A DNA stretch of 39,624 nt, from NCBI GenBank assembly GCA_003154775.1, contig PMES01000091.1:1-39624 (forward strand), written 5' to 3'. The notes below the pieces were generated by a model that was not told the origin of the DNA, ran no database searches, and saw only the letters and a program-made list of their open reading frames with translations. Positions within the stretch are counted from its first letter, which is position 1. Every line of letters starts with the position of its first letter. The DNA is from Acidobacteriota bacterium (GTDB lineage Bacteria; Acidobacteriota; Terriglobia; Acidiferrales; UBA7541). The position numbers and the translations under genes were made by a program. Below are positions 7,003-32,509 of the stretch, in pieces.

Positions 7003-7036
7003 TTTCGCCCCCCTCGGTTTTCTCCCGTTTTTTCGA

Positions 7037-16379: not shown

Positions 16380-16441
16380 GCGTGAACCGGGAATCAGATT
16401 ATCCTCGCGCTGCTTGGCCGGCAGCAGGAAGGTTGCTTCTA

Positions 16442-17500
16442 CTAGTGGCCTGTACCAACTGATTGTGTACTGATATGGCGCGATGGATCGGCATATTTCC
16501 ACTTCACGGTACGGGGCGATTTGTTGTACTGACGGATGTATCGCAAAAGCTTTCTCTTCAGATCAAAGACGGAAGTGAATACGCCTCGCGCGATGACGTC
16601 GCGCTCGATCTTGCCGAACCACAGCTCGATTTGATTCAGCCACGAAGAGTAGGTCGGTGTGAAGTGTAAGTGAACCTTAGGATGCACCGCCAGGAAGTCC
16701 GTGACCGGCCTGCTCTTGTGAGCAGAGAGGTTGTCGGCGATCACATGGATCTCTTTGCCGCGGGGCTGATCGATCACAATGTCGGTGAGGAACGCGACGA
16801 ACTCCGCCGAGGTGTGCCGCGCAGCCGTTTTGCCGAGTACCTCGCCGGTCTTGGTGTTGAAGGCGGCATACAGCGACAAGGTGCCGTGACGAAAGTACTC
16901 AAAGCCGTGCCGTTCTGCGCGTCCCGGGGACAGCGGCAGAACCGGATCCTTGCGATCCAGGGCCTGGATGGCGATCTTTTCGTCCACGCTGAACACCGCG
17001 GCATGCGCCGGCGGGTTCAGATACAACCCAATAATGTCGGCGGCCTTCTTTTCAAAATCCGGATCGTTCGAGGCCATGTAGCGCTCCATGCGATGCGGCT
17101 GGAGTCCGTGCTTACGCCACACCCTTGCCACCATCATGTGGCTGACGTCCAGATGCGCTGCGAGTTTGCGCGTGCTCCAGTGGGTTGCTCCACCGGTCGG
17201 CGCACGCCGTGTCGCCTCCAGAATCCGTGCTTCCAGTTCCGGGGTGAGCACGGTGGCGACTTGTCCCAAATGCCGGCTGTAGAGTCCGGCGATGCGCTGC
17301 TCGGTAAATCGTTTGCTCCAGCTGGCCACAAAACCCCGGCTGCAGTCGATGCGCTCGGACACTTCATCCCACGTATGGCCCTCGGCCAGGAGCAAGACCA
17401 GCCGCGCCCGTCGGGCATCTTCCGCCCGATCCGTCCGGCTATGGGCTCGCCGCGTCAGTTCCACAAGCTCCGAATTCGTCAACGTGATCGCGTCTCTCAT
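16442..17500 (-). CDS. IS630-family transposase
   Basis: A 352-residue DDE transposase. The N-terminal part holds helix-turn-helix segments for end binding (DEVSERIDCSRGFVASWSKR about 45-64, and TRKLAAHLDVSHMMVARVWR about 110-129). The catalytic core has SVDEK (Asp 173), VIADNLSAHK (Asp 256) and NQIELWFGKIE (Glu 292), giving the D...D-35-E spacing expected. The ATG at 17500 has no clear ribosome site; a TATAAT on the coding strand lies only seven bases upstream (17508-17513). The stop codon TAG (16442-16444) lies outside the element: its TA is the duplicated target and its G is the flanking CTAG base. The reading frame is unbroken, so the enzyme is likely functional. Confidence 0.93.
   Translation of the reverse strand: MRDAITLTNSELVELTRRAHSRTDRAEDARRARLVLLLAEGHTWDEVSERIDCSRGFVASWSKRFTEQRIAGLYSRHLGQVATVLTPELEARILEATRRAPTGGATHWSTRKLAAHLDVSHMMVARVWRKHGLQPHRMERYMASNDPDFEKKAADIIGLYLNPPAHAAVFSVDEKIAIQALDRKDPVLPLSPGRAERHGFEYFRHGTLSLYAAFNTKTGEVLGKTAARHTSAEFVAFLTDIVIDQPRGKEIHVIADNLSAHKSRPVTDFLAVHPKVHLHFTPTYSSWLNQIELWFGKIERDVIARGVFTSVFDLKRKLLRYIRQYNKSPRTVKWKYADPSRHISTQSVGTGH
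16443..16457. repeat. left terminal inverted repeat with TA target duplication
   Basis: TA (16443-16444) followed by GTGGCCTGTACCA. It pairs with the inverted right end at 17527-17539, with mismatches at positions 5 and 11 of 13. Confidence 0.88.
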
Positions 17501-17539
17501 GGACGCGATTATAGTCTATAAATGGCTGTTACAGTCCAC
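16445..17539 (-). mobile_element. IS630-family insertion sequence, 1095 bp, complete
   Basis: Both ends are visible. The left end GTGGCCTGTACCA (16445-16457) and the inverted right end GTGGACTGTAACA (17527-17539) match at 11 of 13 bases. The element is flanked by TA on both sides (16443-16444 and 17540-17541). The flanks read C-TA at left and TA-G at right, so the target was CTAG and TA was duplicated, as known for the IS630/Tc1 group. It carries one transposase gene read in the same direction as the locus. Everything needed for transposition looks intact. The insertion removes the last codons of the epimerase fusion gene and separates it from wzx. Confidence 0.92.
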
Positions 17540-17541
17540 TA
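17527..17541. repeat. right terminal inverted repeat with TA target duplication
   Basis: TGTTACAGTCCAC (17527-17539) followed by TA (17540-17541). It also supplies the present last two codons and stop of the neighbouring epimerase fusion gene. Confidence 0.88.
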
Positions 17542-18821
17542 GGCTCTATTTCGCTGTGACGGGAATTTCCCGATGGCGGAACCTGTCCATTAAGACCCAC
17601 TCTGATGATGTTTTCCAGCCCGCGCGCAAGGTCAATTTCCGGACGCCATCCGAGCATCTCGACTGCCCGGTTGATATCCATAACGATGTTGCCTGCGTAT
17701 CCTGAGATGTCATGGTGCCGGATGACGCTGCGTGATCCCACCCGCTCGACGATGCGCTGGGCAATCTCGGTCGTGGATGTTGCAATGCCAGTCCCCAGAT
17801 TGATTACGCCCTGGACGCGACGTTCGATTGCCGCCAGAATGGCCGCGCAAAGATCGTCCACGTATAAGAGGTCCAAGGATGGGAAACCGTTGAGGTACCG
17901 GTGCGCGACAATCTCCTCATTACGCAGGGCCTTCTGAAGAAAGTTCCAAATGAACTTGGGGCGGTCGCTCCCCGGTCCGTAAACCGGACTTGACCGCAGA
18001 AGAGCATAGGCGACTCCATAGTGCTGGTGATAGTGTCGGAGTAAGGTCTCGCACAGAAACTTTGTCTGTCCATAAGTCCCGCCGGGGCAAGGAGCAAGTG
18101 TTTCATCTGCCTTGAGTTCCCTGGTTTTGTAGCCAGAATAGATTTCCCAACCACTAAGATAGACAAGGAGCAACCCATTTTCCGCGCACACGTCCAACAC
18201 GTTTTTCAACATGACCAGCGACATGCCCATCGATTCATTCGATGTATAGACACTAGGGTTGCCCAAATGCAGAACGGTATCGATACCTCGTTCTCTCACC
18301 AGCAGGTCCAAAGCGACCGTGTCCCGAAGCAGGTCAATCTCTTGGCGTGTCGGCGCCATCACTTCGTAATTCCGTTGCAATTCGCCAATCACCGATGAAC
18401 CGATGAATCCCGATGCGCCGGTTACCAGGAGTCTGCGGCCAGCGCCTTGCCTTGCCGTCCCACTCTCGCTCTTCTCACCAAGTGCTTCGCGCACTGCAGA
18501 GAGCACCGCGATTTTGATCGCCTTTTCGCCTGTGGCCCCGATGACTCGCCGCACCGCCTGTTCGAAATCGACTGCTTCGTGCGCTGCGAGAATCCCAGCG
18601 GCGATGGCGTTGCTGCGCGACATCCCATAATCGCAGCAAACTATTACCTTTTGGCCACTTCGCAAATGATCGAGCGCCTCGTTGATCTTCGACTTCACCA
18701 ATGGCGGAGCGTTCCCTTCCTTGTCGAGGAGGTCGCGAGCGTCCAGAATATGAGTGTCCAGCGGCGCGTCGAGGCCGTCCCAGGCAGCGGTTCCCAAGCT
18801 GTCCGTAATCCAGCGGATCAT
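17529..18821 (-). CDS. phosphatase-like domain fused to a nucleotide-sugar epimerase; C terminus replaced by IS
   Basis: A 430-residue two-domain protein. Residues 1-115 look like a dual-specificity/tyrosine-phosphatase fold: VCCDYGMSRS at 61-70 gives the CX5R active site (Cys 63, Arg 69), and Asp 28 or Asp 30 could be the general acid. A short linker leads to an extended SDR with LLVTGASGFIGS (Rossmann loop, about 131-142), Ser 223 in YLSGWEIYSG, and the catalytic Tyr 250/Lys 254 in TYGQTK. The SDR part reaches EMLGWRPEIDLARGLENII, the normal near-end motif, so it should fold. The last two residues (GL) and the stop come from the insertion sequence. Joining the flanks gives an original tail of 13 residues, RSNLPAAGQAARG, in place of these two. 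Its ATG overlaps the ATP-grasp stop (18818-18821). The substrate of either domain is unknown. Confidence 0.82.
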   Translation of the reverse strand: MIRWITDSLGTAAWDGLDAPLDTHILDARDLLDKEGNAPPLVKSKINEALDHLRSGQKVIVCCDYGMSRSNAIAAGILAAHEAVDFEQAVRRVIGATGEKAIKIAVLSAVREALGEKSESGTARQGAGRRLLVTGASGFIGSSVIGELQRNYEVMAPTRQEIDLLRDTVALDLLVRERGIDTVLHLGNPSVYTSNESMGMSLVMLKNVLDVCAENGLLLVYLSGWEIYSGYKTRELKADETLAPCPGGTYGQTKFLCETLLRHYHQHYGVAYALLRSSPVYGPGSDRPKFIWNFLQKALRNEEIVAHRYLNGFPSLDLLYVDDLCAAILAAIERRVQGVINLGTGIATSTTEIAQRIVERVGSRSVIRHHDISGYAGNIVMDINRAVEMLGWRPEIDLARGLENIIRVGLNGQVPPSGNSRHSEIEPSGL

Positions 18822-19855
18822 GGCTTGATCTCCTCCTTACCTACGTAAAGCTCGGTCAAGCTGCGCAGGTAGTACCCGGGTCGAACCGGCGCAACCAGGG
18901 GAACACTCCCGTAAAGCACGTTTTGCAGGTACATGTCGATCTCATTAAACCCCGCCATGGCCCGCAAGTATGTCGAGGCCGAGAACCTTGGATTGATCTC
19001 GAAGGGAATCAGGATGCCCTTGCGCACTCGCCCCTGTATGTTCATGGGGCCGACGCTGCCCAGGGTTTTTGCGATCTTTTCAGCCTGTGCACGCACTTCT
19101 GCAAATTCGTCAATTAGTCCCTGGCTATAACCGCTTGAGATTAGTCCCGCCTGAGTGTTAAGCAAGACAGACAGTTTTGCGTTAAATAATCGTCGCATTG
19201 CTACTGATCCGACTAATCGCCCGTTGGGAAAGGAGAGGGTTCCCACTGTGAACTCTCCCTCATCCAAACCAATATATTCCTGAACCAGCGCGGTATGATC
19301 GTTATTGAGAAGGTGCTCGACATACATTTCCACTTCTGGGCGGTTCAAAGCCAGAAATACAAAACGGCTGCCGCCGGTCCCGGTGGACGGTTTGATTATG
19401 CATGGGCAAGGAATGTCCTTGAGGGTCTCCAACTCGTGCCGGTCCTGGACGGCAACTGTCCATGGTGCCGGCAGGCCGAGCGTTTGCATTCGCTCAAAAA
19501 AGTGCTTCTTGTTAGAGCAGGTGGCGACAACCTCCGGCGAGTTTGCCGCAACCTGAACCCCAGCGTTCAAAAAATCCGCCGCCGCCAACCCCAATAGCAC
19601 CGCCGGCTCGTCTCCACCTGGAATGAGTACGCGAATTCCTGTCGCAACACAGCGTTCCAGAACAGACTCCACGTATCGTTTTCGACTGACCACAAATGTT
19701 TCGGTAATATCCTTCTCATAATGCCCGTAAGCATAACCTGAGATGTCACAACCGTAGACCTGGTACCGACCTGCAGCTCTCAGACACTTGAGGATCTCAG
19801 TTCCTAGCGAGGCTCCCCCGATTCCCGCCACCATAACCTTCGGCATATCAGGCAT
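18818..19855 (-). CDS. ATP-grasp ligase-like protein
   Basis: A 345-residue member of the ATP-grasp superfamily, related to carbamoyl-phosphate-synthase-like proteins of polysaccharide loci. The N-terminal part (VMVAGIGGASLGTEILKCL) is a pre-ATP-grasp Rossmann-like domain. The ATP-binding part shows PCIIKPSTGTGGSRFV (Lys of the P-loop-like strand), LVQEYIGLDEGEFTVG, and the metal-binding PFEINPRFSAST near residue 290. Such enzymes join a carboxylate to an amine or thiol using ATP. Directly after the DegT aminotransferase and coupled to an epimerase, it may acylate an amino sugar with an amino acid or other carboxylate; that is inference. The ATG at 19855 follows GGAGAG at good spacing. It is the first gene after a 282-base gap. 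Confidence 0.82.
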   Translation of the reverse strand: MPDMPKVMVAGIGGASLGTEILKCLRAAGRYQVYGCDISGYAYGHYEKDITETFVVSRKRYVESVLERCVATGIRVLIPGGDEPAVLLGLAAADFLNAGVQVAANSPEVVATCSNKKHFFERMQTLGLPAPWTVAVQDRHELETLKDIPCPCIIKPSTGTGGSRFVFLALNRPEVEMYVEHLLNNDHTALVQEYIGLDEGEFTVGTLSFPNGRLVGSVAMRRLFNAKLSVLLNTQAGLISSGYSQGLIDEFAEVRAQAEKIAKTLGSVGPMNIQGRVRKGILIPFEINPRFSASTYLRAMAGFNEIDMYLQNVLYGSVPLVAPVRPGYYLRSLTELYVGKEEIKP

Positions 19856-20137
19856 GCAATCTCTCCGGCACTAGTAAGCTGAAAAGAAACGCGTTCGCTG
19901 GCAAGATACTGACTCATTCTAGAGGGCATCACATTGGGGAGGTTCTGACTGTTGCCTTGCCCCCTTGTGCCCACCCCAAGATCTCTTTCAGAACTTCACA
20001 GACGTTTGTTCACCTTTTTTCGTTGGATTAACCGCCGACGGAAGTTTGACGGCGAACGAGCTCAACGCAAATGTCAACAGACTATATTGCCAGACTGCTT
20101 ATTTCTGTTTTCCCCAAATCTCTCGGCGGAACCGGGA
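19856..20137. other. 282-base gap inside the polysaccharide locus
   Basis: The largest gap within the sugar-synthesis part. Read on the minus strand it has TTGACA (20072-20077) without a matching -10, and TAGAAT (19917-19922) without a good -35. An internal promoter is possible but not shown. No open frame of interest and no terminator-like hairpin with a T-run was seen. Confidence 0.35.
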
Positions 20138-21274
20138 CTAGCCGCGATCGAATGTCTGCAGGGCTTCGACCACGTAATCGACCTCACCGTCCGTCAGGTC
20201 AGGGAACAGCGGAAGCGTGATAATCGTCTCCCATACTCGCTCAGCAACAGGGACCTTACTTGCATACTTGCGGAATAACGGGTGCATCGTCAGCGGCATG
20301 TAATGCACACCGGTAGCAATGCCCTTCCGCTTCAGGTGCAGGATCAACCGATCGCGCTCGCCGCAACGCACGCCAAAGATCCAGTAAGCGTTCTCGACAA
20401 GCTGATATGGAAACAACGGCCGGATCCTCTCGCAGGAAGCTATCCCGTCCAGGTACCGCCGGATAATCTGCCGGCGGCGCTCGTTCATCTGGTCGAGCTT
20501 GCGTAACTGCGCCAGCCCGATCGCGGCCATCAGGTCGTTCATGTTGTACTTGTATCCAAGCACGTTGACTTCATAGTACCAGTGACGGGCGTCCATCTCG
20601 TCGGCACTGGTGTATTTTGCCGAACGCTTCCAGGTGTCCTTATCGATTCCTACCCAGCGGTACGCCCGCAAGGGTTCGATCAGTTCCGGCCGGTTGGAGG
20701 AGATCATGCCCCCGTCGCCGGTCGTCATACACTTCTTTTCCTCGAAGCTGAAGCAGCCGATGTCTCCCCAGGTACCTAGCTTCTTGCCCTTGTACACGCC
20801 TCCGGCACAATGGGCGCAATCCTCAATCACCGCGAGTTTATGGCGCTTGGCGATCTGGTTCAGGTCATCCATTGGGACGGGATGGCCGCCCATGTGGACG
20901 GGCATAACAATCGCGCAGTCGGAAGTCACCTTCCGCTCGAGATCTTCAAGACTGATGGAAAGGGTGTCTTCATCTACATCGACGAATACGGGCACGAGTT
21001 GGTTATACAGAGCTGCCGTCGCAGTGGACACGAAGGTGATGGCGGGCACGAGGACCTTACTCCCAGCAGGAACCCGCATCGCCGTGACAGCTAGATGAAG
21101 GGCAGCGGTGGCCGAATTGACGCCCACCGAGGCAGTAGCCCCTAGGTACTCGCTCCACTCCTTCTCAAACTGTTCGACGAGCGGTCCAAGGCCCAACCAG
21201 CCGCGCTCGAAGACGGAACGGATATTGGCAAGTTCTTCCTCCCCTACGCAAGGCTTAAAAAGTCGGACTTGCAA
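20138..21274 (-). CDS. DegT/DnrJ/EryC1/StrS sugar aminotransferase, TTG start
   Basis: A 378-residue PLP-dependent enzyme that transfers an amino group to a keto-sugar nucleotide. Motifs are GVNSATAALHLA (PLP phosphate pocket), VIEDCAHCAGG (Asp holding the pyridine N) and GCFSFEEKKCMTTGDGGM, in which Lys 181 is the PLP-binding lysine. That lysine separates it from RfbH-type dehydratases, which have His there. The start is TTG at 21274: a full AAGGAGG lies six bases upstream, and the family N terminus (VRLFKPCVGEEEL) begins there. No ATG is available, and an earlier start would overlap the upstream gene. It follows the RmlC-like epimerase by 11 bases. Substrate is probably a CDP-4-keto-6-deoxyhexose, by context. 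Confidence 0.9.
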   Translation of the reverse strand: MQVRLFKPCVGEEELANIRSVFERGWLGLGPLVEQFEKEWSEYLGATASVGVNSATAALHLAVTAMRVPAGSKVLVPAITFVSTATAALYNQLVPVFVDVDEDTLSISLEDLERKVTSDCAIVMPVHMGGHPVPMDDLNQIAKRHKLAVIEDCAHCAGGVYKGKKLGTWGDIGCFSFEEKKCMTTGDGGMISSNRPELIEPLRAYRWVGIDKDTWKRSAKYTSADEMDARHWYYEVNVLGYKYNMNDLMAAIGLAQLRKLDQMNERRRQIIRRYLDGIASCERIRPLFPYQLVENAYWIFGVRCGERDRLILHLKRKGIATGVHYMPLTMHPLFRKYASKVPVAERVWETIITLPLFPDLTDGEVDYVVEALQTFDRG

Positions 21275-21285
21275 GAATGGCCTCC

Positions 21286-21834
21286 TTAAGCAAATGGTGA
21301 AACAAAATTGTTCATGGTAGGCAAAGCTATATCTTTGGCCGAAAGCACCGGCTCTGTTACCGGCCAAGGGATGGCCAGCGCGCTGTCGTTCCAGCGCAGG
21401 CCACCCTCGGAGCCAGCGTTATAGAGCGCGTCCACCTTGTAGAGAACCAAAGAGATATCCGTCAAAGCGCAGTAACCGTGGGCGAATCCTTTTGGGATGT
21501 AGACGGCTCTATGGTTTTCCTCTGAAAGTTCTGCCATTTCCCACTGACCATATGTCGGCGAACTACGCCGAAGGTCGACAAACACGTCCAACACAGCCCC
21601 CTGGATGACGCGGACCAACTTGGTCTCGGCATGAGGAGGGCGCTGAAAATGGAGTCCGCGGATAATGCCCTTCCTCATAGAGAGCGCTTCGTTCTCCTGT
21701 ACCCAATGGTTAATGAGGCCATGTTGCGCAAAAATAGTTTCATCGTATGACCTCAGGAAGTAGCCACGCTGATCTCTCTTTGGCTCGAGAGTGATTCCAA
21801 ACGCGCCCGATAAGCGAAATGGTTTGATGTCCAT
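21286..21834 (-). CDS. RmlC-like nucleotide-sugar 3- or 3,5-epimerase
   Basis: A 182-residue cupin epimerase with DQRGYFLRSYD, IIRGLHFQRPP (catalytic His), YIPKGFAHGYCAL (normal FAHG) and LRWNDSALAIPWP. It resembles dTDP-4-dehydrorhamnose 3,5-epimerases. It stands between rfbG and a sugar aminotransferase, so the likely substrate is CDP-4-keto-6-deoxyglucose. It is a second, separate RmlC homologue in the window, distinct from the one beside rfbD. The ATG at 21834 was chosen because the family N terminus starts there and it lies 29 bases after the rfbG stop; the frame upstream merely overlaps rfbG. The ribosome site is weak. Confidence 0.85.
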   Translation of the reverse strand: MDIKPFRLSGAFGITLEPKRDQRGYFLRSYDETIFAQHGLINHWVQENEALSMRKGIIRGLHFQRPPHAETKLVRVIQGAVLDVFVDLRRSSPTYGQWEMAELSEENHRAVYIPKGFAHGYCALTDISLVLYKVDALYNAGSEGGLRWNDSALAIPWPVTEPVLSAKDIALPTMNNFVSPFA

Positions 21835-21863
21835 GGAATGCAGCCGAGGAGCGCCGCCTCGTA

Positions 21864-22904
21864 TTATCGCAACTGGGTCGCCGTTGCATGGCGAACTGAT
21901 TTGGGTTGGTGATCGTAGGAGGAAAAGAACTCTTGATACCAGCAAATAGTTTCTTGAAGACCTTCCTCCAAAGTGTATTGAGCTTTCCACCCGAGGAGTT
22001 GCGTTGCCTTGGCCGAGGAGAGGTATTGATTACGAATTTCCCCTTTTGCGGTGTTCAAGACGACAGGCTGAATATGATTGCATCCCATCTGTCTGCGGAT
22101 GTCGTCCACGATTTCGAGCACAGTTATGCGGGATTCTGAACTGAAATTGAAGCTCTGCCCCCGAACGCTCTCCGAATCAAGCCCTTCAGCCAGTGCAAGA
22201 TAAGCCCGTACCACATCATTTACGTAAATGTAATCACGTATGTATTTACCGTCGCTGCGCAAAAGCGGCTGTTGCTTATGGTAGAGAGCTTTGACAGTGC
22301 CTGGAACAATTCTGGTCCAATTCAAGTCTCCGCCACCGTACACATTCCCGCAACGAGCAATGCCAACCGGCAAATTATAGGTTTGGTGATAGCTCTGCGC
22401 GATCATATCGGCACAACTCTTGGAGACCTCGTAAGGATACCTCGGGCGCAGCGCCATATCCTCTGTGTAAGGTAGATCGTCCTGTTCCCCGTACGCTTTA
22501 TCGCTGGAGGCGACAACTATGCGTTCAACGAAGCTTCGGTGCTGACGGCAGACTTCAAGCACATTCCACGTTCCGCGAATGTTAGTCTCGAACGTGGCTA
22601 GGGGCGACATCGTAGCTACCTCCACGATTGCCTGCGCCCCAAGATGCAGGACGGTGTCAACGGAGTACGCAACGACAGCGCGATTTACCGTACTGAAGTC
22701 CTCCAAGCGTCCATTCACCACATGGACGCGGCCGATGGTGCCGCTCCGGTACAGCTCTGTTTGCGGGTTCGAATCCAGGACGAGCGCAACTACATCGGCA
22801 GAACGCGCGACCAACTCCTTTACTAACCACGAGCCGATAATGCCGGTCGCACCCGTGACGAGGACCTTCCGTCCACTCCAAAAACCGTTGCCGTTTTCGC
22901 TCAT
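21864..22904 (-). CDS. rfbG: CDP-glucose 4,6-dehydratase
   Basis: A 346-residue extended SDR that converts CDP-glucose to CDP-4-keto-6-deoxyglucose, the parent of CDP-dideoxy and branched sugars. It has VLVTGATGIIGSWLV, HLGAQAIVEVATMSPLATFE, VASSDKAYGEQ and YPYEVSK (Tyr/Lys). The HLGAQ..V, SSDKAYG and N.YGGGDLNW.RIVPG strings are characteristic of RfbG. The start at 22904 was chosen because its ATG overlaps the rfbF stop as ATGA and a GGAAGG lies seven bases upstream. Another in-frame ATG at 22919 lacks a ribosome site. Confidence 0.92.
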   Translation of the reverse strand: MSENGNGFWSGRKVLVTGATGIIGSWLVKELVARSADVVALVLDSNPQTELYRSGTIGRVHVVNGRLEDFSTVNRAVVAYSVDTVLHLGAQAIVEVATMSPLATFETNIRGTWNVLEVCRQHRSFVERIVVASSDKAYGEQDDLPYTEDMALRPRYPYEVSKSCADMIAQSYHQTYNLPVGIARCGNVYGGGDLNWTRIVPGTVKALYHKQQPLLRSDGKYIRDYIYVNDVVRAYLALAEGLDSESVRGQSFNFSSESRITVLEIVDDIRRQMGCNHIQPVVLNTAKGEIRNQYLSSAKATQLLGWKAQYTLEEGLQETICWYQEFFSSYDHQPKSVRHATATQLR

Positions 22905-23701
22905 TGCCACACCTTCCATTGTGCTGAGGTTTTCCACAACTCGTTCAACATCTGGAAGTCTCGGTAAGTATCCATGGCGTGCCAGAAACCGAGGTGGGGG
23001 TAGCACGCGAGTTGCCCTTCGCGAGCCAGACGCGCCAGCGGTTGTTGTTCAAGTACGCAGCGGTCTTCTTCCTGTAGGTATTCAAAGAACTCACGGCGAA
23101 AGACGAAAAACCCTCCACTAACGAGGCCATCCTGAATGGGTGGCTTCTCGTCGAACTGCTTGACGAGGTCGCCATTTACAGAGAGTTCGCCGTAGCGCGA
23201 AAATGGCCTCACCCCGGTCACAGTGCCGATTTTTCCATGCGATAAGTGGAAGTCCAACAATTTCGCCACATCAACGTTGCCGACACCATCGCCGTATGTG
23301 AGCATGAAGTGCTCACCCTTGATGTATGGTGCGACTCGCTTTACCCGGGCGCCGGTCATCGCTTCGCTGCCTGTATCTGCGAACGTGATGGTCCAATCTT
23401 CGTCCACGCTCGGTTGTCCATGAAGGGCCGGTTCGAGTGGTTCGTTGAGATGCAGAGTAAAGTCGACATTCATCATCCGATAGTCAAGGAAATACTGCTT
23501 AATCATGGAACCCTTGTAACCCAAACACAGGACAAAATCCTTGAAGCCATAATGCGCGTAGGTTTTCATGATGTGCCACAGGATGGGTTTTGCCCCAATT
23601 TCCAAGAGTGGCTTGGGACGGAATTCCGTTTCTTCCCGCAAGCGAGTCCCCATCCCACCGCATAAGATCACTACCTGTATAAGCTTAGAATTCTGAACCA
23701 T
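22901..23701 (-). CDS. rfbF: glucose-1-phosphate cytidylyltransferase
   Basis: A 266-residue nucleotidyltransferase (family length about 257) that makes CDP-glucose from CTP and glucose-1-phosphate. It begins VVILCGGMGTRLREET, then FRPKPLLEIGAKPILWHIMKTY, YGFKDFVLCLGYKGSMIKQYF and MLTYGDGVGNVD (metal-site Asp). VSGGFFVFRREFF and YPHLGFWHAMDTYRD close the protein. These are the expected RfbF motifs rather than RfbA ones. AGGAGACAAGGTGGG lies just before the ATG. It opens the CDP-sugar gene run, 242 bases after the NusG-like gene. Confidence 0.94.
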   Translation of the reverse strand: MVQNSKLIQVVILCGGMGTRLREETEFRPKPLLEIGAKPILWHIMKTYAHYGFKDFVLCLGYKGSMIKQYFLDYRMMNVDFTLHLNEPLEPALHGQPSVDEDWTITFADTGSEAMTGARVKRVAPYIKGEHFMLTYGDGVGNVDVAKLLDFHLSHGKIGTVTGVRPFSRYGELSVNGDLVKQFDEKPPIQDGLVSGGFFVFRREFFEYLQEEDRCVLEQQPLARLAREGQLACYPHLGFWHAMDTYRDFQMLNELWKTSAQWKVWQ

Positions 23702-23943: not shown

Positions 23944-24498
23944 TCAAACTGGGAAAAGTTCCGAAGCATCCACTTCGATGGCCACAGACCGCTGGATTTG
24001 GTCGACCGAAACCACCACGCGGAGCTTACCCTTGCGGCGCACCAGGATCCCCTCCATCCCCGTCATTGGCCCGCCCTTCACCCGCACCCGCCGCCCCACC
24101 CTCAAATAAGGATGCGGCTCCGCTTGCACCCCACTTCCAATGCAGGCACGCAGCGCCTCGATTTCTTCTTCCGGCAGCGCCGCTGGCGTCCCGTCAAACC
24201 CCACCAGTCGCGCCACTCCCGGAACCTGCTGCACACGCAGGCGGTCCTGTAGCGCCATGCGCACGAACACGTAGCCGGGAAACAGCGGCAACTGCAGCGT
24301 TACTCGCCGGTCTTTCCACCGCCGCACCGACGCATACACCGGAAGGAAGTGCTCCACGGATCGTACAACCAGTTGCTCCGCCACGCGCTTCTCGTGGTTC
24401 GCGCTGGTATAAGCGGCATACCATCGCGGCTCGCAATATGCCGCCGGCAGAGTGCTCAACTCGCTTCCGGAATTCAGTTGCGTCCAATGACTCGCCAT
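23944..24498 (-). CDS. NusG-paralogue antitermination factor (RfaH/UpxY type)
   Basis: A 184-residue specialised NusG homologue. The NGN domain (about 25-120) shows RWYAAYTSANHEKRVAEQL and LFPGYVFVRMALQDRLRV, which contact RNA polymerase. The KOW domain follows (LRVGRRVRVKGGPMTGMEGI, about 130-165). Family members bind RNA polymerase during early elongation and keep it from stopping in long polysaccharide operons. Its place between the export/length genes and the sugar-synthesis genes fits that role. The ATG at 24498 follows AAGGA. The N-terminal 24 residues have no housekeeping NusG counterpart. Neighbouring hairpins on both sides may be its targets. Confidence 0.88.
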   Translation of the reverse strand: MASHWTQLNSGSELSTLPAAYCEPRWYAAYTSANHEKRVAEQLVVRSVEHFLPVYASVRRWKDRRVTLQLPLFPGYVFVRMALQDRLRVQQVPGVARLVGFDGTPAALPEEEIEALRACIGSGVQAEPHPYLRVGRRVRVKGGPMTGMEGILVRRKGKLRVVVSVDQIQRSVAIEVDASELFPV

Positions 24499-24543
24499 AG
24501 TTCCTTCTTCAACTTCGCTGCCGTCCGTGCGTGCTCACAGCTT

Positions 24544-24565
24544 CGCCCCGTCACTTACAGGGGCG
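24544..24565 (-). promoter_or_regulatory. hairpin ahead of the NusG-like gene
   Basis: A perfect 6-base stem, CGCCCC (24544-24549) with GGGGCG (24560-24565) and a 10-base loop, in the 116-base gap between wzz and the NusG-like gene. No T-run follows. It may affect read-through or RNA stability; function is unproven. Confidence 0.3.
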
Positions 24566-24614
24566 ATTGTGACCTAACCCATGTACTACCAATTACTTAC
24601 GGCCACATCCGTCG

Positions 24615-26030
24615 CTATGGCTCGTCTCGCTCGGCGTCCTTGTCCTGGTCCTGCTCACTCATCGCGTCCGGCCTTTCCCGCCAACTCCATGCGCGGTGCC
24701 CGTTTGTTTCAGCACCTGTCCCGTTCCGCGAGAACTTCGGCATACGTGCTTGCACCGTCGTGAACACTTCCATCGCAAAAACTCTTCGCGGATCGCTCAC
24801 TTCCACCGCTTCCCACCACGTTTTTCCGACGATCCACGTCATCGCCAGTGTGATCCCTAGCATCGTTCCCAAAATTACGATCATCGTGCGCGGAGGATAG
24901 GATTTTTTCGTGGGCACGATCGGCGCATCCAGCACCTTGACGGTGGGAATCTCCTTGGCTTCTTGCACTTTCGCCAGTTCGTACTGCTGCGTCAGCAACT
25001 CGTACACGGTTTCCTGGAGCTTTGTCTGCCGGAACAGATCCGCGTACGTAACACCCAGCAACGGCAGCTTGCGGATGGAGGGGTACAGGGCGTTTGTGCT
25101 CTGGATTCCGCCCTGCGTTCCCGCACTACCGAGTTCGGTCAGTTTTCTTTGCAGCTCATCCACTCGAGCCTGCACCGAACGAACGCGCACGTTATTGTTG
25201 GTGTAGATCTGCTGCAATCCGCTCAGCTCGGCTTGCGCGGCGATCAACTGCCCTTGCAGCGTCGCGGCTGCTTCCACCATTGCCTTTCCCTGCGCCGGAA
25301 TATCGATGGCCGAGTTCTTGCTGGCATACTCACTGAAATTCTTCGCTGCCGAATCAAGATCCGTTTTCACTGTTTGCAGGCGTTCTTCAAGGAAGATGCG
25401 CTCGCGCCGCGCGGACGAAGTACTGACCTGCGCCACGAGTCGGTCCAATTCCGCCACATACGCCTGAGCCATCGCGGCGGCGCGTTTGGGATCGTGATCT
25501 GTCACACCAATCGAGATAATTCCGCTCTTGCGGTCTTCGGAAAGATCGGTTTGTTCCGCGAGGCCGTTTCTTGCGTCCTCGACCTTTGAGCTGTGATAGA
25601 CCTTCATGAGGTGGAACTCGTCGATCAGCCGGTCCTGGACCGTCTGGCTGCTGAGGATGCCCACAAAAAGCGCGCCGGAACTCTTCACTCCCAGGAGATC
25701 ACCCGCAAGGCCGCCAAGGCCACCGGCTCCGCTGCGGCCAGCCATGGCGGCCACCATCCCCAGCCCTGAAGTGGATTGGCTGTCGGGCGGCATAAGCCGC
25801 GTGACCGATTGGTATCGCACGGGGATCAGGAGAGCAATGAGGATGCTTGCAAGCAGCGCGTACGCTCCCGTGCGGAGCAGGAATCTGCGATGTTCCCATA
25901 ACAAGCGCAGGTAAGGAAGAAAGCTTTGCTGCGTCTCGACCGGCTCCATGAGGAGAGACGATTCCAACCCGTCGTTCTCCCGCTCGTTGTCCGGTGTCTC
26001 GCGGACCGGCACTCTCCCTGTCGCGCTCAA
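24615..26030 (-). CDS. Wzz-like polysaccharide chain-length regulator, TTG start
   Basis: A 471-residue polysaccharide co-polymerase. The cytosolic N terminus is followed by a first membrane helix (about 50-70, ALLASILIALLIPVRYQS). A long periplasmic coiled-coil part (about 190-305, with the GNVR-like segment TNNNVRVRSVQARVDELQRK) leads to a second helix (about 390-410, MIVILGTMLGITLAMTWIVG). The PPDSQSTSGLG segment after helix 1 is typical. There is no Walker motif or tyrosine cluster, so it is not a fused BY-kinase; the C-terminal tail is charged. The start is TTG at 26030, overlapping the upstream TGA, with GGGAG eight bases before. The alternative ATG at 25949 has no ribosome site. Confidence 0.87.
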   Translation of the reverse strand: MSATGRVPVRETPDNERENDGLESSLLMEPVETQQSFLPYLRLLWEHRRFLLRTGAYALLASILIALLIPVRYQSVTRLMPPDSQSTSGLGMVAAMAGRSGAGGLGGLAGDLLGVKSSGALFVGILSSQTVQDRLIDEFHLMKVYHSSKVEDARNGLAEQTDLSEDRKSGIISIGVTDHDPKRAAAMAQAYVAELDRLVAQVSTSSARRERIFLEERLQTVKTDLDSAAKNFSEYASKNSAIDIPAQGKAMVEAAATLQGQLIAAQAELSGLQQIYTNNNVRVRSVQARVDELQRKLTELGSAGTQGGIQSTNALYPSIRKLPLLGVTYADLFRQTKLQETVYELLTQQYELAKVQEAKEIPTVKVLDAPIVPTKKSYPPRTMIVILGTMLGITLAMTWIVGKTWWEAVEVSDPRRVFAMEVFTTVQARMPKFSRNGTGAETNGHRAWSWRERPDAMSEQDQDKDAERDEP

Positions 26031-28597
26031 TTGGAATCTCCCACGCTTGCGGCGTTTTGTGGCCCGTGATGGAATGTTGGCCGGAAAATTTTCTGTGGCT
26101 GAAATTCAATTCCTACGGACGTGGTTATGTCTCGCTCCGGCCCTGGCTGAATCACGGGCATAAGCCACCGCTCGTACTGCACTGAAGCGGTGATTCCCAG
26201 GCCATGGCGGAGCCCGATATCCCCGCGAGCGCCCACGTCGGTCAATGTGCCACCCCCGGGAATAAACTGCTGGCTTACCTTTTCATGCCGGAAATTGACC
26301 TGGATCCGATTTTGGGGCGTGAACCAGTAGTTGGTCCATGCCTGCGCACCCTGCCCGTCGCGCCCGATCCAACTGCCAATCAGATTTCCGCCGTTCGTGT
26401 AACCGTCCAGGTAAGGGCTGGAGCCACTCGAATAATAAAAGCCGTGACCGATGGCGCCCCCCGCGGGAACATCGGTGTACACACCCTCGACGCGGAAATC
26501 GAGTTTCGGAAGTTTCGGAAGGTGCGAAAAATACAGTCCTGCACTAATCCCGGAACGATCCCAGTAGGCGATGGGACTAAGTTGGTCCCAAGCAAAAGCA
26601 TCGCCATAAAACGAGACCCAACGCCGCAGCAGGGGCAGCCGGTAATTCCAATCCAGTCCGGAATCCTGTTTGCCCGGGTCATGTGCCGTGCCCTTCACAG
26701 CATTGTGCTCGCCCCTGTCGAATAGACTTCCCACGAAGTAACCCAGCGTCATTGGAATATCACCGCCGCCGAAGAGCACGGTGCGAGTCACTCCGAACTC
26801 GAAGTTACGTGTGGGCTTAAAGCTAATTCGCTCGCCATGGATGTAGGGCTGATTTTGCAGTGGATCCAGGTAATTACCGATGATTCCCGTGGGTGTCCTG
26901 AAGAAATACTGCCCCGACAGCCGGCCCATGAAAAACTCCAGCCACGCCGGCCCAAAGATTTTCGAAAGCAATGGCACTTTTAATGGGGAAGTCCGAGCGA
27001 TCCTTATCATGGGGATGGCCTGAGAGTTCGTGCTCAGGAGCATAGGCCCGCCCTCTGTCGGGCTGCCCCACATTTCCTGAGGCCCAAAACTCACTAGCCA
27101 GTTCGTGAGTTGCATACCTGCATAGGCCTCGATCAACTGAAACTGGCTCGTGGCTGCGAACGGCGTGGCCGGTGGAGTCCCCTCTCCCCCCAGGCCATCG
27201 GCATTCGCTATGAAGTTCCTTTCGGTCAACGGCAGCGGCGGTGCGGAGGGTGCGTACTGATATTCGCCGCGGACGTAACCCACCCAAGGCCCGGCAGTTG
27301 TATAAAAGGAGAAACCTGTAATCGCGTTCGTGCCTTCCTCATTGGGCCGGCCATAGTCATTGATGATGGTCTGCCCGATGTCAAAGCTCTCCCCGCCTCG
27401 TCCGAGCGGGGGTCCAGAGATTGTGGTGACGCGGGTGTAGACCGATTCGAGCTTAGCGTCTATACCACCCGTTGGGAGGTCCAGTTCGCTCTGGAACTCT
27501 TTCTGCAGCGCGGCGTAAATCCTGCCGGCTTCCGCATTAGAATCCACCCCATGATCGTCCGCCTCCGTGATCAATCGCGCACATTCCCATCGAGTCCAGG
27601 GACGATGTGCCAGAAAGCCACTGTCGATCAACCCGAGACCCATCAGGCGCTCGATCGCCGGATAGACCCAGCTATCCAACGGCACATACGGCGAGCCCAT
27701 ATTGTCTCGAGTGGGGTGCTCAAACAGCTCTCTTGCGTGACTGCTCCAACTTTCCCATGCAGATCCGCCCAATTCCGGATCGTGATGGCGCTTGTAAACT
27801 GTGTAGCCAGACAACTCTCCGATCAATGCGCCGACGAGTACGTCCGACGCAAAATGCTGCTGCGCTCTCACGCGCGAGTAGCTGATCATTCCAGCGGCGC
27901 CGTACGCAAGAATCTTGGTCAACGGTCCTGGATACTCGTGTGCGATCACCCCCGCCACCGACCACGCTGCCGCGGCATGCTCGGAAGGAAACGACGTGCC
28001 ACCGCTCTGAAAAAACGGCCCGCTGCCGTCTCCCTGAAAGGGTCGTTCACGTCCCAGCGAATACTTCAATCCTTCAACCATCACCAGACTGTTCAACGCT
28101 GCTTCACCCGCAAGGAACCCAGTCTCGCTCCAGTGTTCGTTGTGCTTGGCGCGGCCCACCAGCCACATTCCGCCCGCGCTGCCGATGAGTACTCCTGCGC
28201 CGGCGTTAGACAGATTCTTGTATCGGCTGATGGTGTTTGGATCGTGAGACAGGTGCTTGTTGGAATCGCGATCCGTCACGAAAAGTCCTGCCGTGATTCC
28301 ACTAAGCGGAAAAAGCCACTCTGTATCCGAGAACTGAAGCTGCGCAGGACTTGTCCAGATCCTTCGTTGATCGTCCATGAACCTTCCTACCAATCCCATC
28401 CGCGTTCCCTCAGACGTTTTCGCTACCTCGTCGATTTCTGGCGTGTCGCTGGTCTGTGAAGAAGATTTGTGCTTCGCAGATTCGCTTTCCGATGTGGAGG
28501 GCCCCGCTCCCTGCTCTTGCGCCGGGGACACGCGAGCAGTGCTAACACCAAACAGCAGCGCCGCTCCAAGAATCCCGATTTGGCGTCGTATCATCAT
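26027..28597 (-). CDS. PAP2 phosphatase fused to a Wzi-like outer-membrane barrel
   Basis: An 856-residue two-part exported protein. Residues 1-26 are a signal peptide. The first part is a PAP2 (type 2 phosphatidic acid phosphatase) domain with all three motifs: KYSLGRERP at 178-186, PSEH at 204-207 (normally PSGH) and SRVRAQQHFASD at 241-252. The second part (from about 300) matches the capsule-assembly Wzi family: DSWVYPAIERLMGLGLID, then GPWVGYVRGEYQYA and many amphipathic strands ending VGIEFQPQ. Wzi proteins hold or organise polysaccharide at the cell surface. PAP2 enzymes remove phosphate from lipid phosphates such as undecaprenyl pyrophosphate. The gene follows the exporter by six bases. 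A role in both carrier recycling and surface attachment is inference. Confidence 0.88.
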   Translation of the reverse strand: MMIRRQIGILGAALLFGVSTARVSPAQEQGAGPSTSESESAKHKSSSQTSDTPEIDEVAKTSEGTRMGLVGRFMDDQRRIWTSPAQLQFSDTEWLFPLSGITAGLFVTDRDSNKHLSHDPNTISRYKNLSNAGAGVLIGSAGGMWLVGRAKHNEHWSETGFLAGEAALNSLVMVEGLKYSLGRERPFQGDGSGPFFQSGGTSFPSEHAAAAWSVAGVIAHEYPGPLTKILAYGAAGMISYSRVRAQQHFASDVLVGALIGELSGYTVYKRHHDPELGGSAWESWSSHARELFEHPTRDNMGSPYVPLDSWVYPAIERLMGLGLIDSGFLAHRPWTRWECARLITEADDHGVDSNAEAGRIYAALQKEFQSELDLPTGGIDAKLESVYTRVTTISGPPLGRGGESFDIGQTIINDYGRPNEEGTNAITGFSFYTTAGPWVGYVRGEYQYAPSAPPLPLTERNFIANADGLGGEGTPPATPFAATSQFQLIEAYAGMQLTNWLVSFGPQEMWGSPTEGGPMLLSTNSQAIPMIRIARTSPLKVPLLSKIFGPAWLEFFMGRLSGQYFFRTPTGIIGNYLDPLQNQPYIHGERISFKPTRNFEFGVTRTVLFGGGDIPMTLGYFVGSLFDRGEHNAVKGTAHDPGKQDSGLDWNYRLPLLRRWVSFYGDAFAWDQLSPIAYWDRSGISAGLYFSHLPKLPKLDFRVEGVYTDVPAGGAIGHGFYYSSGSSPYLDGYTNGGNLIGSWIGRDGQGAQAWTNYWFTPQNRIQVNFRHEKVSQQFIPGGGTLTDVGARGDIGLRHGLGITASVQYERWLMPVIQPGPERDITTSVGIEFQPQKIFRPTFHHGPQNAASVGDSN

Positions 28598-28603
28598 GCG
28601 CGC

Positions 28604-31600
28604 TCAGGGAATAGCCACAGCCGCAACCAACGCGGCGGACGACGCGATTTGCGCGATCGTCAGGACGTTTTTCAATGTAGTGCTGCCAAGAACTGGCCTC
28701 TCCGGTACCACAATCGTGTCGCCCGGACCCATCGTCGCCGAGAGCACACCACCAGACCAAAGGCGGCCCTGACTGCCGCTCGTCACCGAACCGTCCGAGC
28801 GGACGATGAAGATTGCGCCTTTGTTTGCAAGCTGTGTTGCACCTCCCGCGCGGGAGAGATACCAGTTGGCATTCCTCCCTGGCGTATAGGTGAGGGCGTT
28901 GGCGTTGTACACCTGGCCGATAACCAGCACAGCTCCGGGTTGCTTCGGAATCATTAACGAATCGCCTGCGCGAAGCTCGATATCATCAGGAGACCCTTCA
29001 AAGCCTGTACGATTCGGGCGCAGATGTATCACCAAGCGTCCCGATATCGGGGCTTTGCGGAGCGCATCCAACACGCGTTGGCGCTGTTGCATGGCTGCCT
29101 GTTGCAGCGCAGCTTCTTCGGTTCCGGTCGTAGATGCCGCCGTCTTCACGACCGTGGACTCCTGCTCGAGCCTCTGGATCATTTCCTGGCGGTTCTTCTG
29201 CTGAAGTTCGCGTACTTCTTCCCGTTCAAACACGGCCGCTCGCGGATATGCTGTCGGCAACAACCCTCCCGCACGCTGTAGTAGCGAACTTAGCCGCTCG
29301 CCTGAGCGGATGCCGTACACACCAGGTTTGCGCACCTCTCCACGCAACGTAACCACCGCGCCGATGTCGTTCCAACCAGCCTGCTGCGGCACCGTTAAAA
29401 CATCGCCATCGTGCAGAGGTACATTCTGGTTTTCGGTTCCTGCAAGCGCGGCGGCTAGACTCAAGTCTTGATGTCCAGCTTGCACACGTTCCCCAGACGA
29501 ATCAGAGATCGCATAATGGGTCAGGTCGCCGCTGTCAGGGTTCGCGCTTCGCAGCAATCCGCCAGCAGAACGCACTAGATCGGAAACCCGCATATTGGCA
29601 ACGAGAGGATAGCGGCCCGGCTTCTCCACTTCCCCCTTGATATAAACGGTCGCCGGGTCCACCCTCGCCGGACTCTTGTGGATCAGCAAGCGATCCCGCG
29701 GCAACAGCAGGATGTTTTCTACCGGATTGCCTGCAATCGCTTCCTTCAGGTTGACGCTCAGAATCTTCATCGTTCCGTCGGCCTGCGTCCGGAAGACCTG
29801 CGCACTTCCTTGCGCTGCATCCGGCGTCAATCCACCCGCCAGGTAGATCACGTCGCGGAGATGCACCTGCCCGGGAGTGTCGTATTTCCCAGGCTGCCGC
29901 ACCTCGCCGCCCACCCAGATCGCCGGCGCCGCCTCAAAATCGTAGCGGCTGAAAACTCGCACCGTATCCAACGGTTGCAGCAGCGGAGCCGTAGTGGGAT
30001 CCTTCATGGCGGCAGCCAGGTCAAAACTCACGACGCTAGGGCGAAAATCAGGTGGATTCAGGCGAATGATTTCCCCGTAGTGCGCCGCCGGTTCCGGAAG
30101 GATTTCTTTATACGATGCAAGGAGATCGGTCAGCTTCATCCCATCGCGGTAGGAGTACCGCCCGGGCCTCAGAACGTGTCCCTGCAGGTAGATGGTGTCC
30201 TGGTTGTAGGGCGCGATCGGGAAAATATGAATTTCATCGCCGTCCTGAATCCGGAAGGAGGCGAGTTGCGATGGTGTGGAGTTGTCCGCCGACAGATCCA
30301 GACTCAACATGGTGCGCTTTTCGTGCGCTTCGAGGCGTTGCACTTCGACGTGGCGCAGAGCGGCCGCAGGCAGGATGCCTCCGGCAAGTTCGAGCACATC
30401 CGCGACCGTTTTTTCGCCATTCAGCTCGTAAATCGCCGGCCGCCTCACCATTCCCGCCACGGTAACCTGCGCGCCTACCGGCGGCACCAGCAAGGTGTCG
30501 CCGTTCTCGAGCCTCTTTGCGTCCGGCGTGACACCATGCAAAAGCAGATCGTACGCGTCGATCTCCTCAAGTTCCTGTCGCCCGCGCATGTGTTTCAGAG
30601 AACGCAAAGAACCGCGCGGCGTCGCTCCCCCGGCGGCCACAAGCGCGTTCAGCGCCGTGGAAAGCGAGCTGATATCGTAAGCTCCGGGCTCCTCGACTTC
30701 TCCCACAACGTACACGCGAACCGTCCGCAGACGGGATACGGACACATCGGCCGAGGTGTCGCGATACTGCGTCCCAATTGCTTTTTGGACGGCTTCTTGC
30801 ACTTCGCCGAGCGACCTGCCGCTTACGAGCACGGGACCTGCCTCCGGAAGGGTGACCCTCCCCTGGCGATCCACAACGCGCACCAGTTTTGTCGAAACTC
30901 CTCCCCAGAGATCAATGGATAGACTGTCACCTGGGCCAACCACATAGTCAGGTCCCACGGGCAAATCCATGGGGATGCTGCGGGGATCGCGCAAGCCGTC
31001 CTGAAAGACTTGTGTCCCAAAGCGTTGCGGTGGGAGGTCCCTGGAGGGAGCCTGCACGTAGAGGTCATACAGGGACGGAATATCCGCGTAGGGATTCGGC
31101 CGGTGCACCATGTTTCCGGGTTGGAGTTCACGCTCCTTGGCGAGCCTCGGTTCACGCCGCCAAATTGACCCTGCCCCCGTTTCCAGCTTTGCACCCGCCG
31201 AAAGGGTTGTTTCTCCGGAAGCCGCCTCCGCTGCCGAGCCTCGCCGCGCTTCGCCACGCGACTGTTCCAAGGGAGAAACGCTAAGTGAATCCGGAGATCC
31301 ATTGCCGTAGAGTGATGGATCACGAGGAGTTTTCATCGTGTCAGAGACATCCTGGAACGAAGAATTTCCTTCCGAGGCTCCGCCGAACGGCGCACCCTCT
31401 GGATTGACGTCGGTTTGCATGATGCGTGGAGATGGCGACAGCGGCTGCCCGTCGTTGGGATAATTGGAAGATGGCTCTTTCTGCGGACTGCTTTCGTCGG
31501 GAGTTGAGATGGCGCGCCTCGGCCGGGGCGCCGCTCCCTGCACGCATTCTCTGTCCTCATTCAAATCGCAGGGCGCCGCTTTCGCTTCGCTCGTCTGCGT

Positions 31601-32119: not shown

Positions 32120-32509
32120 TCAGTTAATCTCGGCGCTTTTGCTCACCGTCTCAGCAACGCTTTTCACGGCGCTAAGGAAACCCTGTTCCGACGATTCGAT
32201 ATCGGCGGCATGAATATCGAGGGACGCCCAATAACAGACGGTGTAATTTTCGTGCGGTGCGACCGCGATGATGTGTAGCGCGGGGTACTCGCGAAGCAGT
32301 TCGTCGCAGATTGCGGGCCGCTTGCCCGGTTTGTCTGCTGTAACCACCAGAAGGTCCGGCGCGGTTTTTTGCACCGACTCGCGAATTTCCGCTTCTTGTG
32401 CCACTTCGCCGACGATTTCGATCCAGGATTCTTCTGCGAGCATCTCCACAAGCAGCTCTCGCATCAGCTTCGGCTGGTTGGCCACGAGAATACGGAATGT
32501 ATTGACCAT
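32120..32509 (-). CDS. degenerate receiver-domain protein, first gene of the locus
   Basis: A 129-residue stand-alone domain with the fold pattern of response-regulator receivers: ILVANQPKLMRELLVEML, EIVGEV, then APDLLVVTAD. The residues needed for phosphorylation are missing. The acidic pair after the first strand is Asn-Gln (11-12), the phospho-acceptor position is Thr 57 with the nearest Asp at 59, and the C-terminal conserved Lys is absent. It is therefore probably a phosphorylation-independent protein-protein or sensor module. It has no DNA-binding domain. The ATG at 32509 follows AGAGGGG. It heads the export genes and is divergent from a LuxR-type regulator, so it may tune expression of the locus. 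That role is inference. Confidence 0.72.
   Translation of the reverse strand: MVNTFRILVANQPKLMRELLVEMLAEESWIEIVGEVAQEAEIRESVQKTAPDLLVVTADKPGKRPAICDELLREYPALHIIAVAPHENYTVCYWASLDIHAADIESSEQGFLSAVKSVAETVSKSAEIN

Follow-up and report, generated by a model that had tools for sequence, protein, structure and literature searches.

RfbF-RfbG-RfbH pathways make the 3,6-dideoxyhexoses abequose, paratose and tyvelose linked to cytidine diphosphate (CDP), and the nucleotide-sugar aminotransferases PseC, ArnB and LegC act on 4-keto sugars; the Campylobacter route to CDP-6-D-glucitol reportedly needs no RfbH. N-acylkansosamine is 4,6-dideoxy-2-O-methyl-3-C-methyl-4-(2-methoxypropionamido)-L-mannose. Here we analyze a set of six genes in a 39,624-nucleotide stretch of DNA (the window; contig PMES01000091.1, our contig C75, of the Acidobacteriota assembly GCA_003154775.1, a bin of 4.63 Mb with a completeness of 98%). 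The set is probably a nucleotide-linked amino sugar pathway within a widespread, uncharacterised cassette that probably includes the N-acylkansosamine route. More precisely, with a probability of roughly 0.6, the product of the six genes is a CDP-activated, N-acylated 4-amino-4,6-dideoxy-L-hexose that goes into a surface polysaccharide of the Wzx/Wzy type, and the genes represent a methylation-free branch of a cassette whose full form is likely the N-acylkansosamine route.

All six genes are encoded on the minus strand, and no internal stop interrupts any open reading frame (ORF) among them; they stand in the order RfbF, RfbG-like, RmlC, DegT, ATP-grasp and a fusion of a dual-specificity phosphatase (DSP) with a short-chain dehydrogenase/reductase (SDR). 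The original prediction, made from the sequence alone, had named the same six, and they are real genes; its range of 18818-23701 omits nearly all of the fusion gene, which runs down to 17529. The genes are:

22901..23701, minus strand: RfbF, glucose-1-phosphate cytidylyltransferase (makes CDP-glucose); TIGR02623, 314 bits, cut-off 300
21864..22904, minus strand: RfbG-like CDP-glucose 4,6-dehydratase; TIGR02622 is the best NCBIfam model, and the first ATG of the domain is at 22904
21286..21834, minus strand: RmlC-like 3,5-epimerase; TIGR01221, 188 bits, cut-off 156
20138..21277 (start codon not settled), minus strand: DegT/ArnB/PseC-like sugar 4-aminotransferase, subtype SFEEKK; PF01041, 350 bits
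18818..19855, minus strand: ATP-grasp ligase (predicted N-acyl ligase); NF009402, 291 bits, cut-off 218; FEINPR at 18986-19003
17529..18821, minus strand: DSP-type phosphatase and extended SDR fusion; C-x5-R at 18615-18635, YGQTK at 18060-18074

The DegT lysine, the RfbG S-D-K, the ATP-grasp FEINPR, the phosphatase C-x5-R and the SDR Y-x3-K are all present in the window; RmlC was assessed by its model score alone, without a motif check, and its best match among solved structures is 3ryk. The RfbG-like gene carries SSDKAY at 22491-22508. S/T-D-K and Y-x3-K are the catalytic residues of CDP-glucose 4,6-dehydratases, and both match in the alignment of the window protein with two CDP-glucose dehydratases, 1rkx and 1wvg; 2hun, which bears the name of a dTDP-glucose dehydratase, has a slightly higher score than either. 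The same type of RfbG is found in four other cassettes from the genome scan described below (L024, L025, L027, and L069, at 44-62% identity), and a canonical RfbG is found in the cassettes of L028 (500 bits) and L032 (484 bits). The two types thus substitute for each other within the cassette, which supports the same reaction for both.

The pyridoxal phosphate (PLP) lysine of the aminotransferase, already called intact in the original prediction, is K182 (codon 20732-20734) within SFEEKKCMTTGDGG. PseC is the best NCBIfam model for this protein (294 bits, below the cut-off of 423.5), which scores above no NCBIfam cut-off. Since the PLP lysine is present, the protein is not an RfbH-type dehydrase; no RfbH-type gene occurs in the six-gene set, and no whole-genome search for RfbH was made. 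One might still read the set as a CDP-3,6-dideoxyhexose route of the abequose or paratose type with a drifted dehydrase, given the RfbF-RfbG head and given that, in another genome of the same family (L019), a gene with an RfbH-like histidine motif (SFYPAHH) comes directly after the window type of RfbG. This is highly improbable: the window DegT has a lysine, not a histidine, at the PLP position, and the RfbH model NF011936 gives it 159 bits against a cut-off of 423.

An alignment of three ATP-grasp sequences served as the query for a scan of 84,980 species genomes, from which we analyzed the best 80 of 270 confirmed stretches. Fifty of these (L024-L071, L081, and L094), chosen without regard to gene content, have a best-segment identity of at least 39% and form the close group; the ATP-grasp identity of the other 30, the distant group, is 28-37%. 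The DSP-SDR fusion, as one ORF, is the next gene after ATP-grasp in all 50 close loci (in 48 of them the DSP match begins at most 3 bp from the end of the ATP-grasp gene), so the adjacency is not due to chance. Thirty-two of the close loci are well-flanked (at least 9 kb upstream and at least 4 kb downstream); counting genes by bit-score thresholds, on either strand and anywhere in the stretch, we found RfbF in 27 of the 32, RfbG in 26, RmlC in 29, and DegT in 30. The original prediction would have fallen if the ATP-grasp and fusion genes were not conserved with the CDP genes; they are conserved with them. Fifteen of the 50 close loci share the colinear order RfbF, RfbG, RmlC, C-methyltransferase, DegT, ATP-grasp, fusion; a second arrangement, found with variants in five loci, is RfbF, RfbG, C-methyltransferase, RmlC, ATP-grasp, fusion, methyltransferase, CmcI, DegT. 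The records come from Thaumarchaeota, Methanocorpusculum, Mycobacterium, Pseudomonas viridiflava, Oscillatoria, Methylocapsa, Gallionella, Chloroflexi, and others. Rather than the unique oddity that it was first taken for, the six-gene set therefore looks, from these comparisons, like a reduced member of a widespread, uncharacterised cassette of bacteria and archaea that usually comes with C- and O-methyltransferases.

Searches with single proteins gave little. No match to the fusion protein was found outside the window's own genome among 94 relatives of the window's order (E<=1e-40), and none to the ATP-grasp protein in 395 other genomes of the window's phylum (1e-30) or in 394 other genomes of the phylum of L028 (1e-60); the species-genome scan with ATP-grasp as a single-protein query gave no match. 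A plasmid search with the window fusion returned 901 records, all below 60% identity and none covering 80% of the query, and in the 25 best records listed mainly the SDR part was aligned; a plasmid search with the L032 fusion (1e-30) and an E. coli search with L032 DNA gave no match. A phage search with ATP-grasp gave three weak matches only, two of them annotated carB.

The phosphatase domain occupies the N-terminal ~120 amino acids of the fusion. The call of a phosphatase-SDR fusion stands on its C-x5-R signature, which is invariant in all 51 aligned fusions (the window and the 50 close loci), but not on the domain model, since the DSPc Pfam match is weak (E=0.0033, 17.7 bits vs. a cut-off of 33.5). 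The columns invariant across the 51 fusions include C63, D64, G66, S68, R69, and S70, and also D27, R29, D33, and N37. The SDR part scores above the PF01370 cut-off, and in the window it has GxxGxxG, the serine and Tyr-x3-Lys. In five alphaproteobacterial fusions (L041, L044, L045, L047, and L051) a leucine stands in place of the SDR tyrosine, with the phosphatase signature intact. Structure models of the ATP-grasp protein (pLDDT 95.2; nearest fold 2pn1, then PurT, with PurK and L-amino-acid ligases lower) and of the fusion (pLDDT 93.8; SDR part nearest to UDP-sugar 4-epimerases) agree with the proposed roles, with which they are consistent without being proof; among the 50 matches listed for the fusion model, the DSP part has none of its own.

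In the distant group a different picture emerges. None of the 30 distant loci has a DSP, RfbF or RmlC match, so the CDP genes go with the ATP-grasp/fusion type of the close loci. A calcineurin-like or HAD phosphatase match is found within about 2.2 kb of ATP-grasp in 21 of the 30 (within 300 bp in 17; that of L092 consists of fragments); nine have no such match (L082, L095, L096, and L098-L103, the eight besides L082 being mostly thaumarchaeal). In addition, in three rhizobial plasmid loci (L015, L022, and L023) only 3 bp separate ATP-grasp from a PHP phosphatase, after which comes an SDR. No calcineurin-like, HAD or PHP query matched in the 50 close loci. An aminotransferase lies near ATP-grasp in 20 of the 22 distant loci examined, and no DegT match was found in the remaining eight of the 30; in R. 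sullae (L022) there is a DegT match near ATP-grasp. We also observed that the distant relatives L072-L080, L083-L093, and L097, together with L015, L022, and L023, have a phosphatase of unrelated fold nearby, usually an aminotransferase, and often an SDR.

Thus, unrelated phosphatase folds swap beside one ATP-grasp family, which suggests that phosphate is removed from a small molecule in the pathway. This swapping is the most unexpected result of the comparisons, and hints at an undescribed phosphate-bearing acylation step. One could instead take the DSP domain to be a regulatory protein-tyrosine phosphatase of capsule assembly that became fused to the SDR. Wzb is the phosphatase for Wzc in capsule assembly, the locus is of the Wzx/Wzy type and includes a Wzz/GNVR protein, and the domain has C-x5-R; however, the DSP tracks ATP-grasp in every one of the close loci, archaea and mycobacteria included, and swaps among unrelated folds in the distant loci suit a small-molecule phosphatase, so we would be surprised if the regulatory role proved correct. 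We tentatively put forward a broader form of the small-molecule role, which may possibly hold: an undescribed amino-sugar acylation in which ATP-grasp works obligatorily with a small-molecule phosphatase, often with an SDR. The ligase would couple a phosphorylated acid, such as an enol phosphate or phospho-hydroxy acid, to the amine, after which the acid would lose its phosphate and be reduced; in different lineages the phosphatase would have been exchanged for enzymes of unrelated fold (DSP, calcineurin-like, HAD or PHP). The window would then carry out the same chemistry on an unmethylated CDP sugar, and the mycobacterial cassette would lead to N-acylkansosamine.

For the window itself, the pathway that we favor, the formation of a CDP-linked, N-acylated amino sugar, would have six steps, in which every reaction, the L configuration, the acid and the order of the last steps are inferred. 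RfbF would form CDP-glucose and RfbG would convert it to CDP-4-keto-6-deoxyglucose; RmlC would epimerise C3 and C5 to give an L-series 4-keto sugar, and the DegT enzyme would place an amino group onto C4. The ATP-grasp enzyme would then form the acyl phosphate of a small carboxylic acid and couple the activated acid to the C4 amine, and the phosphatase-SDR fusion would complete or prepare the acyl part. A lactate-like C3 acid is a first guess for the acyl group, by analogy with N-acylkansosamine. It is doubtful, but worth stating, that the acid has the form of a phosphate ester or enol phosphate while it is coupled or carried, and that the DSP removes this phosphate before the SDR reduces the acyl carbonyl. 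What has been demonstrated is the identity of the genes, their co-conservation, the conserved active-site residues, and the lack of a PF08484 match in the window's genome or in the L028 genome. As in the original prediction, a CDP-linked, N-acylated amino sugar is the best-supported reading.

Methylation is where the window departs from most of its relatives. Among the 32 well-flanked loci, a C-methyltransferase gene (~410-430 amino acids; PF08421, PF13489, PF08484) is present in 27, a first O-methyltransferase slot is filled by either of two different families in 30, and a CmcI-type methyltransferase is present in 24. Rhodanobacter sp. PCA2 (L037) and Oscillatoria sp. HE19RPO (L040) are among the loci in which every counted gene of the full cassette was found. 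There is no C-methyltransferase (PF08421/PF08484) in the window, and PF08484 has no match in the whole of the window's genome (98% complete) or in the L028 genome (completeness untold); a search of the window alone, not of its whole genome, with three O-methyltransferase queries gave no match. L028, a deltaproteobacterial bin, has the same cassette order as the window, without a C-methyltransferase or any O-methyltransferase match, and is the sole well-flanked locus that lacks all three kinds. RfbF, RfbG, RmlC, DegT, ATP-grasp and fusion in this order, without a C-methyltransferase, occur only in the window and L028 among the 51 loci compared, and so does the SFEEKK aminotransferase. The two aminotransferases are 62% identical, have the common subtype SFEEKK[CA]MTTGDGG, and in the tree fall outside the main cassette clades. 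For the 49 DegT genes of the window and the close loci, the motif is SFEEKK in these two and SFHG[TS]K in 43 (all 43 members of both main cassette clades, with the lysine retained); the other four (L025, L027, L036, and L040) are outside the main clades, three with SFFPSKN and L036 differing. In 395 genomes of the phylum of L028, the window aminotransferase finds matches in 14 genomes (1e-90), of which only L028's own has SFEEKK. The coincidence of the SFEEKK type with the missing C-methyltransferase shows that aminotransferase type and lack of C-methylation go together, though in two cases only. Because the methyltransferases are missing, the window product is expected not to be N-acylkansosamine; it is predicted to be an unmethylated CDP-4-acylamido-4,6-dideoxy-L-hexose, in other words a "des-methyl" relative of kansosamine. 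Separately, we noticed an extra DegT gene (SFFPSKN) just ahead of RfbF at L025:5101-6459 and L027:3863-5215, which groups apart from the cassette aminotransferases.

The link to kansosamine comes from mycobacteria. In M. persicum (L061) the order is glycosyltransferase, epimerase, glycosyltransferase, RfbF, RfbG, RmlC, C-methyltransferase, DegT, ATP-grasp, fusion, O-methyltransferase, and polyketide synthase, so that the cassette is bordered by glycosyltransferases, an epimerase and a large polyketide synthase; the cassette order is shared by M. attenuatum (L065). Both species are placed within the M. kansasii group (PMC7916490). N-acylkansosamine has been on record since 1984 (Hunter et al.), and is borne by the lipooligosaccharides (LOS) IV to VII of M. 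kansasii (PMC4403928). The LOS gene table of the latter paper lists MKAN27425 (glycosyltransferase), 27430c (epimerase), 27435 (glycosyltransferase), 27440 (glucose-1-phosphate cytidyltransferase), 27445 (epimerase/dehydratase), 27450 (rhamnose epimerase), 27475 (methyltransferase) and 27485 (polyketide synthase; PMC4403928), MKAN_27485 being pks5 (PMC8422904). The gene order of L061 parallels MKAN27425-27485. The tags between 27450 and 27475 are unlisted in the table; tags in steps of five would leave four genes there, and L061 has four: C-methyltransferase, DegT, ATP-grasp and fusion. Each of the L configuration, the C-methyl, the amino, the amide and the O-methyl groups of N-acylkansosamine would be matched by a candidate enzyme of the cassette, and, by this analogy, the full cassette with C- and O-methyltransferases is likely the N-acylkansosamine route of the M. 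kansasii complex. The section of the LOS paper on MKAN27435 does not assign these genes to kansosamine (PMC4403928), and in the open-licence literature we found no assigned N-acylkansosamine pathway.

Several observations weigh against the acylated CDP sugar or its link to kansosamine. The kansosamine link is drawn from gene order and the structure of the sugar, with the M. kansasii order taken from a table, and the strands do not fully agree: L061 encodes one glycosyltransferase on its minus strand, whereas MKAN27435 has no "c" in the table. The window RfbG scores 196 bits with TIGR02622, below the cut-off of 278.45. Among the well-flanked loci, within the stretches analyzed, L030, L033, and L062 are without RfbF, RfbG and RmlC, L035 and L070 without RfbF and RfbG, L058 without RfbG, and L030 and L062 without DegT. 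The methyltransferase-free form is found in only two genomes, both metagenome bins. In S. meliloti (L015), a PHP phosphatase and an SDR lie by ATP-grasp, with no annotated aminotransferase within 8 kb, so that N-acylation of an amine need not hold family-wide. We found no assay of any enzyme of the six-gene set in the literature. Finally, the SDR lysine is retained in 48 of the 51 fusions and the tyrosine in 34 only, so not every fusion can carry out a classical redox step; set against the invariant phosphatase residues, this variation indicates that the phosphatase is under stricter constraint.

The SDR also bears on a reading that leaves the sugar part as above but makes the sugar skeleton, and not an acyl group, the target of ATP-grasp and the fusion: the SDR, as a C4-epimerase or 4-ketoreductase, would turn the same 4-keto intermediate into a second sugar, and ATP-grasp would form another bond (e.g., a carbamate or an amino-acid amide). 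The folds nearest to the SDR part are indeed sugar-nucleotide 4-epimerases, and 2pn1, the fold nearest to ATP-grasp, is a carbamoyl-phosphate-synthase-like protein. However, a tyrosine missing in 17 of the 51 fusions is ill-suited to an obligatory epimerase or reductase, and an aminotransferase is near ATP-grasp in 30 of the 32 well-flanked loci and in most of the distant loci examined; we consider action on the skeleton unlikely, and prefer acylation of the C4 amine.

The cassette sits among Wza-, Wzz-, Wzi-, Wzx-, and Wzy-type genes, a capsule-type polysaccharide locus, whose other parts in the window are:

23944..32104, minus strand: export genes upstream of the cassette, with a NusG/RfaH-like regulator, Wzz/GNVR, a PAP2-Wzi fusion and an SLBB/Wza-like protein
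16442..17500, minus strand: IS630-family transposase directly 3′ of the fusion; NF033545, 250 bits
3493..16502, minus strand: the remaining polysaccharide locus (transposase excepted), with a Wzx-like protein, glycosyltransferases, Wzy_C, a second RmlC (~7037-7561), an SDR, RmlD and an initiating sugar transferase

The transposase occupies the slot held by an O-methyltransferase gene in most close loci, and genes there may have been displaced; no inverted repeats of at least 14 bp were found around it in 16250-17650. It is conceivable, but very unlikely, that the window holds a decayed kansosamine cassette, which lost its methyltransferases through the IS630 insertion and is now disappearing. 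The position of the transposase and the gap of 282 bp between DegT and ATP-grasp agree with decay. Against it, the six ORFs are open and the checked motifs conserved, the C-methyltransferase is missing from the 5′ part of the set, on the opposite side from the insertion, and L028 has the same order and aminotransferase subtype.

Other features of the locus include a single 856-amino-acid ORF (26027-28597, minus strand) that combines a PAP2 phosphatase domain with a Wzi-type capsule assembly domain, and a polysaccharide export protein (28604-32104, minus strand) of 1166 amino acids with five SLBB stretches, far longer than the usual Wza. A LuxR-type response regulator (32912-33625, plus strand) and a receiver-like protein (32120-32509, minus strand, weak match) lie beside the export genes. 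The second RmlC, the SDR and RmlD are grouped at ~5135-7561 (minus strand). RmlB is found above the cut-off elsewhere in the genome, on contig C8, and the RmlA models TIGR01207 and TIGR01208 have no match above the cut-off anywhere in it. A dTDP sugar was set aside for the cassette, since its RfbF scores above the cytidylyltransferase cut-off; given the RmlB on contig C8, there may be a dTDP route outside the window.

N-acylkansosamine is found on the lipooligosaccharides of an opportunistic pathogen, and the cassette offers a candidate gene for each main step of its formation. The cassette reading predicts CDP as the nucleotide, and would extend this type of sugar to environmental bacteria, cyanobacteria and archaea. 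A natural methylation-free variant simplifies stepwise enzymology, and the recurring pairing of ATP-grasp with a phosphatase poses a clear biochemical question.

Compared with known systems, the window set shares its first two steps with the RfbF-RfbG-RfbH pathways, but has RmlC and a lysine-bearing aminotransferase in place of an RfbH-type gene. Its aminotransferase resembles PseC, ArnB and LegC in having PF01041 and the PLP lysine (the best solved match is ArnB, 1mdo), whereas the expected nucleotide is CDP rather than UDP. The distant neighbourhoods (Bradyrhizobium, Arcobacter, Bacteroides, Sinorhizobium, and others) are similar to the window in having a related ATP-grasp with a phosphatase beside or near it, but the phosphatase is a separate gene of another fold, and the RfbF and RmlC genes and the DSP domain have no match in the 30 distant loci; we know of no characterised neighbourhood of ATP-grasp with a calcineurin-like, HAD or PHP phosphatase. 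The original prediction that known CDP routes use RfbH was too wide, as the CDP-6-D-glucitol route of Campylobacter has been published (PMC10918830). Closest is the M. kansasii LOS locus, which, in the genes listed in its table, has RfbF, an RfbG-type dehydratase and an RmlC-type epimerase in the same order as the window (PMC4403928). In the mycobacterial loci L061 and L065, as in the window, ATP-grasp and the fusion follow RfbF, RfbG and RmlC; unlike the window, these loci have a C-methyltransferase, an O-methyltransferase and another aminotransferase subtype, and L061 also has a polyketide synthase as neighbour.

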